From contig NZ_JMTZ01000014.1 of NCBI RefSeq assembly GCF_000731095.1, forward strand, positions 62,001 through 126,000: 64,000 bases of DNA, written 5' to 3'. How positions within the stretch are numbered: the first letter of the stretch is position 1; the number at the start of each line of letters is the position of its first letter. This stretch comes from Lysobacter antibioticus. Lineage in GTDB: Bacteria > Pseudomonadota > Gammaproteobacteria > Xanthomonadales > Xanthomonadaceae. Below are positions 55,270 through 59,919 of this stretch, in pieces. The notes beneath the pieces are model-generated. The model did no database searches, was not told where the DNA came from, and saw nothing but the letters and a program-made list of their open reading frames with translations. The position numbers and the translations under genes are program-made.

Positions 55270-56493
55270 TCAACCCTTGATGCAGACCACCTGGCGCAAG
55301 GTGTGGACCACCTCGACCAGGTCGGACTGCGCAGCCATCACCGCTTCGATCGGCTTGTAGGCTGCCGGCGACTCGTCGATGACCGCCGCGTCCTTGCGGC
55401 ATTCCACGTGGGCCGTGGCCTCGCGGTGGTCTTTCAAGGTGATCTGCCGGCGGGCTTCGCTGCGGCTCATGACCCGGCCGGCACCGTGGCTGCAACTGTG
55501 GAAGCTGTCGGCATCGCCCTTGCCGCGCACGATGAAACTGCGCGCGCCCATGCTGCCGGGGATGATGCCGAGCTCGCCCTCGCGGGCGCTGACCGCGCCC
55601 TTGCGGGTCACCCACAACGGCTCGCCGAAGTGCTGCTCGCGCTGCACGTAGTTGTGATGGCAGTTGACCGCGGTCTTCTCCAACTGGAACTTCGGCAACT
55701 GGATCCGCATCGCGTGCAGGACCCGGTCCATCATCGCTTCGCGATTGTGGCGGGCGTAGTCCTGCGCCCACGACACCGCTTCGATGTAGTCGTCGAATAA
55801 GGGCTCGCCTTCGAGCAGGAAGGCCAGGTCCTTGTCCGGCAGATGGAAGCCGAGCACGCGCTGTTCCAGTTTCAGTCGCGCCAGTTCGATGAAGTAGCTG
55901 CCGATCAGGTTGCCGGTGCCGCGCGACCCCGAATGCAGCATCACCCACACCGCGCCGGCCTCGTCGAGGCAGACCTCGATGAAGTGGTTGCCGCCGCCGA
56001 GCGTGCCGATCTGTTTGTCGAGCTTGTCGGTGCGCAGCTTGCGGTGCTTGGCGTGGATGGCGTCGAGCCGTTGCGCCAGCCCCGACTTGGCCAGGCGCGT
56101 GGCATGGCTGTCCGGCAGGCGCCGGTGCTCGCCGCCGCGGCCGTTGCCGACCGGCACGCAGTGCTCGATCGCCGAACGCAGCTTGGCCAGGCTGTCGGGC
56201 AGGTCCTTGGCCCGCAGCGTGGTGCGCACCGCGGCCATGCCGCAGCCGATGTCGACGCCGACCGCGGCCGGGATGATCGCGCCGCGGGTCGGCACGACCG
56301 AACCGACGGTGGCACCCTTGCCGAGGTGCACGTCCGGCATCACCGCCACCCAGGGCCCGACATGGGGCAGGGCGGCGATGTTGCGCAGTTGTCGCTTCGC
56401 GCCTTCGTCGACGGGTACGCCGCGGACCCAGGCCTTGACCGGCACCGCGCCTTCGTCGGCGTGCAGCAGTTCGTAGTTCGATGTAGTAGTCAT
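55270..56493 (-). CDS. rtcB: RtcB RNA ligase
   Basis: 407 residues, the length of short bacterial RtcB proteins. It joins 2',3'-cyclic phosphate or 3'-phosphate RNA ends to 5'-hydroxyl ends using GTP and manganese. The metal and guanylylation motifs are present: PDVHLGKGATVGS, VGVDIGCGM (metal Cys), GTLGGGNHFIEV, NCHHNYV and CSHGAGRVMSR (His for the GMP adduct). It is the last gene of a minus-strand operon with a slipin and an unknown protein. Neither rtcA (cyclase) nor rtcR (sigma-54 activator) is in the window. Confidence 0.96.
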   Translation of the reverse strand: MTTTSNYELLHADEGAVPVKAWVRGVPVDEGAKRQLRNIAALPHVGPWVAVMPDVHLGKGATVGSVVPTRGAIIPAAVGVDIGCGMAAVRTTLRAKDLPDSLAKLRSAIEHCVPVGNGRGGEHRRLPDSHATRLAKSGLAQRLDAIHAKHRKLRTDKLDKQIGTLGGGNHFIEVCLDEAGAVWVMLHSGSRGTGNLIGSYFIELARLKLEQRVLGFHLPDKDLAFLLEGEPLFDDYIEAVSWAQDYARHNREAMMDRVLHAMRIQLPKFQLEKTAVNCHHNYVQREQHFGEPLWVTRKGAVSAREGELGIIPGSMGARSFIVRGKGDADSFHSCSHGAGRVMSRSEARRQITLKDHREATAHVECRKDAAVIDESPAAYKPIEAVMAAQSDLVEVVHTLRQVVCIKG

Positions 56494-57363
56494 TCAATGT
56501 TCCTTGTGGCGACCGCCGGGACGGATCGGTCCGCGGTACTTGCCCATCCGGCGCCGGCGCCGTGGGGCGGGTGCGTCGTAGGCGTCCGGCAGGTCGTTGT
56601 TTCTAAGTCCGTGTTCGAGCAGTTCGTTGCGTCCGAGTTGCCGCTTGCGCTGCGCGTAAACGCCGGCGTCTGCGTAAAGGCGCTCGCGCCGGCCCGCGCA
56701 GTCGCCGGCTGGCTGGCCGGTGACGAGGTCGTGGGCGAAGGTACGAACCGTGCCGTGCGCACCGTGACGCGGCTGGCGCTGCCAGGACGCAGGCACGGGT
56801 GCCAACTCGATCGCATACCAGATGCCATCGATGCGACGCAGCTGGGCGGTCGGCCCGAGCCTGCGCACCTCCGGTTCCAGCCCTTGCTGGCGGTGTTGCA
56901 CGTCCCGCGCATGCGCGCGCCGCCGTTCGACCCGCAAGCGGATCGCCGCTTCGTTGCGCATCAGGCAGCCGCTGTCCGGGCATACGTACAGGTCGTGCCA
57001 GGACTCGGCCAGGGTCTTGAGGCCGCCGTAACGGCGCAAGGCGTACAGCTCGCCGTCGACCCGGTGCACCCGCATCGCCACGAAATCCTCGAGGTGTTGG
57101 TGAATGTGCTGTTGCACGGTGTTGCGCCGGTCGACTTGTCCGCACAGTTCCGAGTAGACGAAATCCCAGCGCCGCCCGAGCTGCCGTTCCAGGTAGCGTT
57201 GCAGCGGTTTCAGGTTCTCGTTCAGCCATTTCGGGTCGTGGCGATGGCGGAACTTGAGGCTCTCGCGTTGGCGCTCGTCGTTCGGGTCGCGGGGCGGACG
57301 CGAAGCGTGGAATCCACCCCGCCGCGGCCGTTCGACGATCACTTTGTACATATCGTTTCGCAT
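56494..57363 (-). CDS. unrecognised protein encoded between slipin and RtcB
   Basis: 289 residues, very Arg- and His-rich. It starts with a basic segment (YKVIVERPRRGGFHASRPPRD), then FRHRHDPKWLNENLKPLQRYLERQLGRRWDFVYSELC, RNTVQQHIHQHLEDFVAMRV and DLYVCPDSGCLMR. It contains a CxxxxC pair (CPDSGC) and a strongly basic C-terminus (APRRRRRMGKYRGP). The composition suggests RNA binding. Its stop (TGA) touches the rtcB start, so the two are coupled. I know no family or function; it may be a recurrent partner of RtcB operons. Confidence 0.7.
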   Translation of the reverse strand: MRNDMYKVIVERPRRGGFHASRPPRDPNDERQRESLKFRHRHDPKWLNENLKPLQRYLERQLGRRWDFVYSELCGQVDRRNTVQQHIHQHLEDFVAMRVHRVDGELYALRRYGGLKTLAESWHDLYVCPDSGCLMRNEAAIRLRVERRRAHARDVQHRQQGLEPEVRRLGPTAQLRRIDGIWYAIELAPVPASWQRQPRHGAHGTVRTFAHDLVTGQPAGDCAGRRERLYADAGVYAQRKRQLGRNELLEHGLRNNDLPDAYDAPAPRRRRRMGKYRGPIRPGGRHKEH

Positions 57364-57498: not shown

Positions 57499-58629
57499 TC
57501 AGCCCTTGCCCTTCAGGCTTACCAACTGCGTCATGACACCCTCCAGACCGCCGAACACGGTCAACTTGTCGATCTTCTCGGTGATCTTCTCCAGCGCCTC
57601 GAGCTCCTTGAGGCGCATCAGCACCGGGCTGTCCTCGATCAACTTCGCGGTGTTGAGCAGGCTGCGCGTGGCGTTGGCCTCCTCGCGGCGGCGGATCACG
57701 TTGGCTTGCGCGGTCTTTTCCGCCTGCACCACGCCGTTGAGGATCTCCTTCATCTCGCCCGGCAGGATCACGTCCTTGACGCCGACTCCCAGCACTTCGA
57801 CGCCGATGCCGGCGACCTGGCCGCGCACGTAGGCGAAGATGTCGGCGTCGAGCGAGGCCTTGTCGCCGAGCAGCTCGTCCAGCGTCTTCGACGAGACCGC
57901 CTTGCGCAGGCCGTACTGCAGCTCGCGATAGACGTGCTCGGCGTGCTTGGCGACGCGGGTGCGCGCGGCGACCGGGTCGGTCACGCGCACGCTCGCCGCC
58001 AGGTTCACGCGCAGCGATACCTTGTCGCGGGTCAGCAACTCCTGGCCCGACACTTCCATCGCCTGCATGCGCAGCTCGATCACCTCGACGCTGACGTTCT
58101 TGCGGAAATTCCAGAACGCATAGGCGCCCGGCTCGAGACGGCGCACGAACTTGCCGTCGACGAACAACAGCCCGGCCGACTCGGTCGGCACCGCGCCGGC
58201 GACCGCGATGCGGTCCAGGTAAGCGAGCTGACGCAAGCGGTTTGCGACGTCCGGCTCGATCGCCAGGCCGTCGCCGAGGACGATGGTCCGCACTTCGATC
58301 TGCGCCAGCCCCTTCCAGTACAGCTGGCGGGTGCCAGGTGCGAGCACATCGTCGATCCTGCCGTTGCGCAGCACCAGACCGATCTCCTGCATGCCCAGGT
58401 TGGCGAGCACGAAGTGTTCGTCCAGGCGCGCGCCGAGGCCGGCGATCAGCGCATCGGCGTCGCGCCCGTTGTATTGGGCGTCGACGATCGAATGCGCCGT
58501 CACTTCGAGCTGGTGCTGCCAGTTGCTGAGTCGATGCACGCCGGGGCCGAGCACGCGCTCGATCCGGCGGTTGCGGTAAACCAGGGCGCGCTCGGCATCG
58601 CCGACCACGACCTTCTTCATCCAGAACAT
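57499..58629 (-). CDS. slipin / SPFH (band 7) domain protein in the RtcB operon
   Basis: 376 residues. The start MFWMKKVVVGDAERALVYRNRRIERVLGPGVHRL is the family opening. The SPFH domain (about 140-290) includes MQAMEVSGQELLTRDKVSLRVNLAASVRV and a YRELQYGLRKAVSSKTLDELL segment. The C-terminal helical region (EMKEILNGVVQAEKTAQANVIRRREEANATRS) would form the coiled-coil oligomer interface. Slipins in RtcB operons lack a long membrane segment at the N-terminus, as here. The start at 58629 follows AAGGAGA; the frame opens to 58770 without similarity. First protein gene after the tRNA-like RNAs. Confidence 0.9.
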   Translation of the reverse strand: MFWMKKVVVGDAERALVYRNRRIERVLGPGVHRLSNWQHQLEVTAHSIVDAQYNGRDADALIAGLGARLDEHFVLANLGMQEIGLVLRNGRIDDVLAPGTRQLYWKGLAQIEVRTIVLGDGLAIEPDVANRLRQLAYLDRIAVAGAVPTESAGLLFVDGKFVRRLEPGAYAFWNFRKNVSVEVIELRMQAMEVSGQELLTRDKVSLRVNLAASVRVTDPVAARTRVAKHAEHVYRELQYGLRKAVSSKTLDELLGDKASLDADIFAYVRGQVAGIGVEVLGVGVKDVILPGEMKEILNGVVQAEKTAQANVIRRREEANATRSLLNTAKLIEDSPVLMRLKELEALEKITEKIDKLTVFGGLEGVMTQLVSLKGKG

Positions 58630-58997
58630 GGTGTTCTCCTTGTGGTTCCGGTGGGCCCGATCCGTGGTGATGGCCGCTGCGACCGAATCGGTCGTCGCAA
58701 CGGCGCGGTGATCCGTCGTGCGCGAGCGCCGACGAGAGCAATAGGTAGGAAACGCCCCTGGCATCGTCATCGCGAAACCCGCGCGCTGCCGGCGGGAGGC
58801 GATGCGGCCCGCGTTCGCGACGTTCCCTGTCGCGAGGCTTGCGCCGCACCGTCGCGCGCCACGAGGGCGCGGGTCCGGCGATGTCGCCGCTGCGTCGTTC
58901 CGTTGCGCGCCGCGCGAACGCGGCGTTTGGCGAAACGCCGCGCGGGGCGTTTCCTGGATCGGAACTTTCGTTCCTGATTAACTGCTTGGAAGGCAGT
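58630..58997. other. 368-base region between slipin and the tRNA-like RNAs
   Basis: No gene. It should hold the slipin leader on the minus strand. I looked for a sigma-54 GG-N10-GC element and found none convincing. It contains a Cys/Arg-codon-like high-G+C run and a T-rich patch near 58975. Confidence 0.5.
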
Positions 58998-59071
58998 TAG
59001 GGATAACGGGACTCGAACCCGCGACCGACAGCATCGAAAGCTGTTGCTCTACCCGACTGAGCTATATCCAA
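58998..59071 (-). ncRNA. tRNA-like RNA 1, anticodon TCG, imperfect acceptor stem
   Basis: Minus-strand sequence has a D arm (GCTC / GAGC), a full anticodon stem (ACAGC / GCTGT) with loop TTTCGAT (anticodon TCG), a 5-base variable loop and a T arm (GCGGG-TTCGAGT-CCCGT). The acceptor pairs only GGATA with TATCC; the first two pairs (T-T and T-C) cannot form, and no CCA is encoded after it. A normal tRNA would have seven pairs. So it is probably a tRNA mimic rather than a translation tRNA. It starts 3 bases after the end of tRNA-like RNA 2. Confidence 0.75.
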
Positions 59072-59073
59072 AG

Positions 59074-59144
59074 ACCGACGGATCGGATTCGAACCGATGA
59101 CCCGCGCACTACGTCGCTGCTCTACCAGGCTGAGCTACCGTCGG
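59074..59144 (-). ncRNA. tRNA-like RNA 2, perfect acceptor, shortened anticodon arm
   Basis: Minus-strand sequence has a perfect 7-bp acceptor (CCGACGG / CCGTCGG), a D arm (GCTC / GAGC) and a perfect T arm (ATCGG-TTCGAAT-CCGAT). Between the D arm and the T arm only 20 bases exist including position 26, three fewer than usual. The best anticodon stem is only GCG / CGC with a loop near ACGTAGTG, so the decoding arm is abnormal. No CCA is encoded. It is the 5' member of a tandem pair 3 bases apart, both upstream of the slipin-RtcB operon. Confidence 0.75.
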
Positions 59145-59919
59145 TTTGAGAAACATCCATCCGCGGACGTCGGCATACGCCACGGCAATGCCGCGCGCAC
59201 CGGACGGGCTGCGAGCCCGTACCGCTGTCGTTCGTTTCATCGGATGCTTCGTATTGCCGACTGTCGCCAATCGGCAATGGGTTCGGGCGCAAGCGCCCAT
59301 GTCTGCGGTTCCACGATCGGCCGCCCGTGCCGAAGCATCGGGACACAGCGCTCGAAGCGCCTCGACGGCTCATCCCCTTTCCTCTCGGATGCTTCGGGGG
59401 TATGGACTCGCGTTATTGCTTGGTTTTTCCCTTTGCGGACGCTGAAACTGAAACGCCCCCGGTGGTGAACCGAGGGCGTTCGCGTTCCTCGGGAGATCGG
59501 GGCGACCGATCTCCCGTGGTAAAGGGAGTCAGTCCGGCGTGTGCAGAACGTCGAGGCGACCGCGCTTCGTCGACGCGCGATCGAACAGGCCGTGGCACGA
59601 GGGCCGCGGTGCGTTCTGTTTGGCGATGTCGAGTGTGAAATGCACGGAAGGAGGTCGGTCGAATGCGTCGCTAGGACGAAGGCCGCGAACGATACGCCCG
59701 CGAAAAACCGGATGCAATACCGTTCGTCGCCCCGTGAGCGGTGCGGTGCGATCGAAGGGAGAGAGGTTTCTTCCAATGACGGTGCCGCTCGTTCGTCGAG
59801 TGGTTTCGATCAAGCGCGTTTTGCTTCGGCGAGGCGGCGGCTCGAATGCGCTTGCCCTCGCCCCGATCCTCTCGCGCATCGCGGGAGAGGGCGCCGATAG
59901 CTTCGCTGCGGCGGCGGTG
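59145..59919. other. 775-base region with a chain of stable hairpins
   Basis: Lies between the tRNA-like RNAs and the isochorismatase gene. Open frames occur on both strands but none has a good start or domain. Stable hairpins are at 59204-59220 (ACGGGCT-gcg-AGCCCGT), 59254-59277, 59452-59480 and 59491-59515. A copy of CGGATGCTTCG occurs at 59241 and 59386, with a near-complement at 59331. It could encode another structured RNA or hold the promoter of the RNA-repair operon. A REP-like palindrome is at about 59854-59892. Confidence 0.45.
59452..59515. other. two adjacent strong hairpins with similar loops
   Basis: Hairpin 1 (59452-59480): 12-base arms with one mismatch, loop GGTGA. Hairpin 2 (59491-59515): 10-bp perfect stem GGGAGATCGG, loop GGCGA. 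They lack T tracts in both directions. A terminator role is possible; a structured RNA element is equally possible. Confidence 0.55.

Follow-up and report, generated by a model that had tools for sequence, protein, structure and literature searches.

The operon that encodes a slipin-family protein and the RNA ligase RtcB in Lysobacter antibioticus is headed by a structured leader RNA in which a conserved 65-nucleotide (nt) block is followed by two tandem tRNA mimics, TL1 and TL2. It lies in a 64,000-nt stretch of assembly GCF_000731095.1 (contig NZ_JMTZ01000014.1, positions 62,001 to 126,000), hereafter called the window, in whose own numbering its features are given. As judged by comparison of homologous loci, the TL1-TL2 leader RNA is under RNA-level selection, tied to slipin and tRNA-shaped, and its two mimics are very unlikely to decode as ordinary tRNAs. 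We favor the reading, at a probability of roughly 0.4, that it is a stress-induced, Y-RNA-like tRNA mimic that serves the slipin/RtcB repair machinery as a handle.

Two tRNA mimics within a longer conserved leader RNA

ARAGORN reports two minus-strand tRNA genes at 58996-59072 and 59073-59144, the latter with a two-base "anticodon"; the program also covers tmRNA and reports none in the window. A permissive search with the Rfam tRNA family (RF00005) matches both TL2 and TL1 (58.2 and 46.2 bits), and a scan of the whole window at Rfam's own cut-off lists TL2 and not TL1. By our stem boundaries, TL1 (59074..59145) and TL2 (59001..59069) stand head to tail on the minus strand with a gap of 4 nt, and 371 nt separate the end of TL2 from the slipin ATG (58629). 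A first-pass annotation of the window, which had placed two tRNA-shaped RNAs on the slipin strand about 370 bases before that gene, is thus borne out by both programs; the 3 bases that it put between them become 4 nt, near-adjacent all the same.

The two mimics depart from a normal tRNA in different arms. TL1 has a perfect 7-base-pair (bp) acceptor (CCGACGG/CCGTCGG; 8 bp with an outer A-U), and its D and T arms are intact, the T arm without a flaw. What is stunted is the anticodon arm, which is too short and in which the parser detected no clean stem. In TL2 the anticodon arm is a clean 5+7 (ACAGC-TTTCGAT-GCTGT, anticodon UCG), whereas the acceptor is reduced to just 5 pairs. The earlier statement that neither RNA folds normally therefore applies to TL1 for its anticodon arm and to TL2 for its acceptor. 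That neither encodes CCA holds without change in the window, whereas all 20 sampled tRNAs of the host have CCA and U33 (with 7-bp acceptors by eye), and U33 is present in 40 of 40 CCA-bearing tRNAs of its genome.

For comparison, slipin homologues were gathered from related genomes, named species (80 loci retained of 135 found), other families of the order, and a phylum sample of 398 Pseudomonadota genomes, 23 of which carry slipin at E 1e-60. Nearly all loci were thus reached via slipin, the slipin-independent evidence being a genome scan with a model of the block (R1) and a search with the block pattern. ARAGORN calls tRNA-like genes 5' of slipin in most loci, with many different "anticodons"; 10 of 110 sequences gave no call. 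With a covariance model of TL2, named R2, 77 of the 80 named loci show one or more matches 5' of slipin. The three without are L069 and L078, both contig ends, and L046 (Arenimonas composti), which retains a T arm alone. Both R1 and R2 necessarily match the sequences from which they were built, and these include many of the 80 loci. In the phylum sample, 22 of the 23 loci likewise have an R2 match 5' of slipin; in the remaining one slipin abuts a contig end, and a block and a mimic lie near the end of another contig of that genome. Among 12 loci from other families (L111-L122), 10 have a match, and the two others have 550 nt of upstream sequence (L117) or none (L122).

For TL2 and for the block alike, pairs were counted on the alignments that had also supplied the structures, whether by reading or by prediction. 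For TL2, 77 of the 89 distinct sequences were aligned, namely those with 7-nt loops, so that other loop sizes are absent from the pair counts. Within this alignment the cloverleaf is paired in 91.1% of cells, and 14 of 20 pairs covary; cells with both sides changed number 175, compared with 39 for shuffles and 13-42 for slid controls. The acceptor comprises 4 pairs, the next two positions outward being unpaired in 59 and 62 of the 77 sequences; the D stem is identical in all 77, the T stem is paired in all, and the anticodon stem is 99.2% paired with all five pairs covarying. Invariant positions are U8, A14, one G of the D-loop GG, U54, U55, C56 and A58 (our tRNA numbering). Of 128 loci, 106 have an anticodon loop of 7 nt; U33 is present in 57 of these loops and lost in 49.

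Among 64 distinct TL1 sequences, nearly all have at least 5 acceptor pairs, with a sixth in 56 and a seventh in 28, and CCA follows the T arm within 12 nt in 38. The lack of CCA seen in the window therefore does not extend to TL1 of relatives, while the short acceptor of TL2 does recur. In relatives the anticodon arm of TL1 frequently takes the form of a stem capped by a GNRA-like tetraloop; by eye, a single hairpin replaces the D and anticodon arms in L160. Since the D and T arms and the elbow residues are kept and the acceptor, U33 and CCA features are not, the elbow appears conserved and decoding lost. Homologous loci do not combine normal seven-pair acceptors and CCA with a lack of RtcB linkage; in relatives the TL2 acceptor has 4 bp. 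Ordinary tRNAs or their pseudogenes are rejected on the grounds of the covariation with a 4-bp acceptor and of the missing CCA and U33. This carries a warning for annotation, as ARAGORN labels many of the mimics tRNA-Asn, -Gln, -Met and so on when decoding is very unlikely.

Loci carry one to three mimics, mostly two; three stand in tandem at 1087-1301 of L173. A contig labelled Verrucomicrobia (L075, 28-3043) has about 25 ARAGORN tRNA calls just 5' of a slipin-RtcB locus with mimics; its slipin is 69% identical to that of Lysobacter, which renders the label, or a transfer, doubtful.

The pair sits within a longer conserved leader RNA that the first-pass annotation had overlooked and that includes the 65-nt block 5' of TL1 (59169..59233, minus strand; 80.8 bits with R1), with an invariant core of GGTGC or CGTGC, then GTAT. 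In an alignment of 46 of the 76 distinct blocks, 12 of 19 pairs show changes on both sides; such double-change cells number 54, versus 7.8 when shuffled. The R1 scan, made without reference to slipin under strict filters (13 candidates scored per listed genome), matched 12 of the 398 phylum-sample genomes, all among the 23 slipin carriers found in a draw of the same kind. For 11 of these genomes the match and the slipin downstream of it share a contig, and in the twelfth a contig break separates them. R1 matches 76 of the 80 named loci (the exceptions are two contig ends, L109 and L110), and in the host genome the operon copy (E 1e-12) is followed by a next-best place at E 0.88. With up to 3 mismatches, the block pattern occurs in 33 of 299 genomes of the order, at one place each save for a second, poor place in the host; slipin lies downstream in 30 of the 30 places fetched. 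Rfam has no listing for the block, even at E 5.

A fast-changing anticodon loop in TL2

One part of TL2 departs from this conservation. Loop divergence was compared in 128 loci (those left after removing duplicates from 166 of 179 with a parsed TL2), taken as 54 disjoint sister pairs in five bins of increasing distance, with a parser whose fixed stem position misreads a few Lysobacter loops. Differences at loop positions 33-36 amount to 0.19, 0.18, 0.44, 0.43 and 0.56, against 0.04, 0.08, 0.13, 0.21 and 0.31 at slipin four-fold sites, i.e., 1.8 to 4.3 times as much, and against 0.07, 0.08, 0.13, 0.23 and 0.31 in the untranslated stretch 5' of slipin. The D and T stems range from 0 to 0.05, and the D loop gives 0.12, 0.10, 0.22, 0.23 and 0.22. 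Pair by pair, the anticodon loop lies above the untranslated stretch in only 33 cases and below it in 21 (3 versus 5, then 4 versus 6, in the two closest bins), so that its excess rests on the pooled rate and may reflect either selection or relaxed constraint. There are 78 distinct loops among the 128 loci, and those identical to real tRNA loops (6 of 59) match the 6.2 expected from column-shuffled loops. A decoy copying particular host tRNAs is accordingly unsupported, and a simple decoy is not favored.

Operon layout and partner genes

The unit runs entirely on the minus strand, in the order promoter, leader open reading frame (ORF), hairpins, block, TL1, TL2, two small hairpins, slipin, a 289-amino-acid protein and RtcB. 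A sigma70-like promoter (TTGCAT-17-TATCGT, 59689..59717), of a pattern recurring in relatives' leaders, precedes a leader ORF of 38 codons with a GTG start (59529..59645), at a place where relatives also have an ORF, which ends 12 nt 5' of a hairpin (59490..59516) separating it from a terminator-like hairpin with a weak T run (59445..59480). The latter, common to most Lysobacterales leaders examined, may act as a conditional terminator. A further hairpin from the alignment fold (59254..59277) lies 5' of the block; another (58980..58998) follows TL2 immediately, and then comes GGAAC-GAAA-GTTCC (58961..58974). The slipin-family SPFH protein (57499..58629, 376 amino acids) is preceded by an AAGGAG ribosome site. 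The 289-amino-acid protein (56494..57363) has no Pfam match and has relatives in 11 of the 80 named loci, and RtcB (55270..56493, 407 amino acids) is recognized by PF01139 at E 6e-126.

In 76 of the 80 named loci slipin is followed by RtcB, which was not found in L040, L088 (whose sequence stops 1.7 kb after slipin), L109 and L110. Phylum-wide it adjoins slipin in 14 of 23 loci, in one of them upstream, which makes slipin the constant partner of the RNA. Of the nine others, L164 has RlaP, a protein of an RNA repair pathway (PF10127), and eight have no RtcB within the fetched 1.5 kb. RlaP was sought in L164 and L177 only and follows slipin in both, with RtcB not found there; one of the two is an Escherichia coli plasmid locus, whose leader has no R2 match and, by eye, only a T arm. 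RNA repair thus seems to be the usual company of slipin, with RtcB, RlaP or RtcR alongside. The proposed linkage of the tandem pair to slipin and RtcB stands insofar as the RNA is conserved with an RNA-repair-type operon, with slipin rather than RtcB as its fixed element. No tRNA-family match was found within 26 kb of the host's second RtcB (contig 44).

All 40 slipin homologues examined have the Band_7 domain. In the predicted fold, the SPFH domain follows three beta repeats at the N terminus; the model strongly matches SPFH folds. Its whole-length alignment to the major vault protein (4v60_A; Z 11.4, 253 residues, root-mean-square deviation 9.4) is weakly supported; searched on their own, the N-terminal repeats give weak matches to SPFH N-domains, weaker ones to vault repeats, and no Foldseek match at 1e-3 or better. 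Neither slipin nor the 289-amino-acid protein nor RtcB matches a known defence family in PADLOC. The SPFH family is described as building rings and cages (PMC12624060), and an SPFH gene of Pseudomonas aeruginosa is reported inside the rtc locus (PMC13086221). In three loci (L160, L113, L164), an HNH-endonuclease gene (Pfam HNH_5) stands about 0.5-1.3 kb before slipin, 5' of the RNA; an HNH gene is also included in the list reported for the Anabaena regulator TrcR (PMC10272220).

Two modes of control

The same RNA is found under two unrelated switches, which suggests that it has a function of its own, separable from operon control. In distant loci, a sigma54 motif lies upstream of slipin, where the RNA begins, in 9 of 14 examined, and the upstream proteins are RtcR in 6 of 6 tested. 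The window operon has no sigma54 pattern upstream with at most one mismatch allowed. In Lysobacterales, 61 of 69 distinct leader ORFs have a promoter of the form TTGC-17-TAWNRT no more than 120 nt 5' of them (0.8% of shuffles), with a spacer of 17 nt in 58 of the 61; four leaders for which the wrong ORF was chosen (L026, L037, L076, L128) are included in this count and excluded from the codon and amino-acid analyses. The ORFs of relatives have 34-45 codons at the same place, and in most a strong terminator hairpin comes next, then the RNA and the operon. This arrangement of promoter, ORF and terminator resembles attenuation, although every folding version tried gave the terminated state only, and the antiterminator was drawn by eye.

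Conservation of the leader peptide as a protein is unsupported, with 110, 104 and 130 differences at the three codon positions. Across 21 pairs, 57 codon changes are synonymous and 175 non-synonymous. The ORFs use 16.5 kinds of amino acid, against 15.1 in shuffled versions (39 representatives, 0 of 2000 shuffles). Such varied ORFs would suit a ribosome that reports stalls at almost any codon. In the leaders of 65 relatives, this variety resembles a sampling of nearly all tRNAs. Leader-peptide control has also been proposed for the RtcB-like gene armZ of P. aeruginosa (PMC12057347). In two Candidatus Thiodiazotropha loci, CCA-bearing tRNA genes (Lys, Leu) stand between a terminator-like hairpin and the mimic (L109, 4166-4327; L110, 4167-4328).

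Possible functions of the leader RNA

The handle reading would work as follows. The core of the RNA, i.e., the 65-nt block and then one to three tRNA mimics in the slipin 5' leader, would be co-induced with the RNA-repair operon upon translation or tRNA damage, via RtcR and sigma54 in some lineages and via the leader-ORF attenuator in Lysobacterales. Its L-shaped elbows would engage elbow-recognizing proteins, allowing the RNA to serve as a handle for the slipin/RtcB machinery, a role analogous to that of YrlA in rtc operons of the Salmonella type, where it serves the Ro ring. Rings and cages are also formed by the SPFH family, to which slipin belongs, and this makes the parallel with Ro a fitting one. 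The proposal in the first-pass annotation that the RNAs are parts of the repair system fits insofar as they are tRNA mimics conserved with a repair-type operon; the roles of sensor, decoy or ligase substrate that it named would be further suppositions.

Several observations weigh against this reading: (i) the strictly 5' position of the RNA is compatible with a purely cis role; (ii) RtcB is not adjacent in 9 of the 23 phylum-wide loci, as judged within 1.5-kb flanks; (iii) Pfam finds no slipin domain besides SPFH; (iv) R2 matches ordinary tRNAs as well (e.g., in L075), so that an R2 match supports a mimic and does not alone prove one; and (v) under its strict filters the R1 scan missed 11 of the 23 slipin carriers, among which a local R1 search at E 0.1 recovers L162, L163, L164, L165, L172, L174 and L175.

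Nearly as likely as a handle is a cis-acting leader element, in which the mimics would serve their own mRNA, e.g., as RNase P/Z-type processing marks at which the regulatory leader is severed from the slipin message, or as protection of the 5' end of that message, with the anticodon arm then free to drift. Wherever examined, the RNA is upstream of slipin on the same strand, and R1 has no good place away from slipin, in line with the fetched pattern places. The 5-6 bp acceptor and T arm that TL1 keeps, with CCA in over half of its sequences, approximate a minimal RNase P substrate, and the A. composti locus retains just such a T arm. The 4-bp acceptor of TL2, however, is a poor RNase P substrate, and pure drift would not yield an anticodon stem that is almost fully paired and heavily covarying.

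Less likely, although the most striking, is a bait: TL2 would show changing loops to anticodon nucleases, and cut copies would be resealed by RtcB or signal via RtcR, the fast loop change reflecting an arms race. We regard this as improbable. It would account for a loop that outpaces four-fold sites in all five bins on nearly static stems, with dozens of variants, and RtcR is reported to sense cut tRNAs (PMC7790460). Against it, loops equal real tRNA loops at chance only, TL1 frequently carries a tetraloop, and the loop exceeds the untranslated stretch in just 7 of the 18 pairs of the two closest bins, with the D loop also fast at short distance; Salmonella YrlA, moreover, is reported to be uncut (PMC7790460). 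A fuller version, less probable again, would have a trans-acting RNA with a fixed tRNA body and a variable loop provide interchangeable baits in a slipin cage, resealed by RtcB, and these would, as part of the same joint reading, occupy or report tRNA-cutting toxins. If true, bacteria would have in such a bait an RNA analogue of a variable immune receptor.

It is very improbable, finally, that the mimics are ordinary tRNA genes, surplus or in decay, that belong to a stress operon in the manner of the trn array of Anabaena: two CCA-bearing tRNA genes do stand beside the mimic in each Thiodiazotropha locus, and Anabaena TrcR is reported to control rtcB, a slipin and the trn operon jointly (PMC10272220), but decay would not preserve across the phylum a cloverleaf that is 91% paired, covaries and has an acceptor of 4 bp, and U33 is lost in 49 of 106 loops.

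Comparison with known systems

A literature search, with subscription journals mostly outside its coverage, turned up no description of this leader RNA, which is apparently unnamed so far. tmRNA and other tRNA-like structures likewise present a tRNA elbow without decoding; TL2 differs from tmRNA-type structures in its lack of CCA. On the protein side, the slipin model shares the SPFH fold with the cage-forming stomatin and HflK/C; to the major vault protein, a possible relative, it aligns as a whole chain, and its N-terminal repeats give weaker matches to vault repeats than to SPFH N-domains.

Two systems recall the Lysobacter leader in its control. The PA5471.1-armZ leader of P. aeruginosa combines a leader peptide with a proposed ribosome-dependent attenuation before an RtcB-like gene; the accessible text of that account mentions no tRNA mimics, and for the Lysobacter leader attenuation is proposed from sequence (PMC12057347). 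In the Anabaena TrcR regulon, a single regulator responsive to translation stress governs RtcB, a slipin and additional RNAs of the tRNA type, but as described there, unlike in the window operon, the genes are unlinked, the tRNA array is on a megaplasmid and TrcR is a repressor (PMC10272220).

The closest precedent is YrlA (RF02553, of rsr-yrlBA-rtcBA operons), a tRNA mimic beside RtcB (PMC8394870, PMC7790460). Both are elbow mimics in an RtcB operon controllable by RtcR, beside a ring-forming protein. The host, however, has no Ro gene, as the first-pass annotation had claimed for the locus and as the absence of any TROVE (PF05731) match across the whole 5.5-Mb genome confirms, and its leader RNA has two complete, unpermuted cloverleaves with anticodon arms, whereas YrlA has one D/T/acceptor domain on a Ro-binding stem. 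The Rfam YrlA model scores 24.8 bits in the window and 41.3 in the best of six relatives, below its cut-off of 69. Since such matches straddle the pair, a permuted YrlA-type fold across TL1 and TL2 was considered and rejected: the canonical TL2 acceptor covaries, so we read the matches as a by-product of tandem tRNA shapes. The best of them (L027, 3260-3367, minus strand; E 4e-6) spans parts of both mimics, hinting at how a permuted Y RNA might arise from tandem mimics.

By its sequence features, then, the leader RNA resembles a Y RNA and is not a member of that class. With it, bacterial RNA repair gains a widespread RNA that mimics tRNA. The leader RNA also links a slipin of unassigned role to that repair and offers, besides Y RNA, an independent case of RtcB operons accompanied by a tRNA look-alike.
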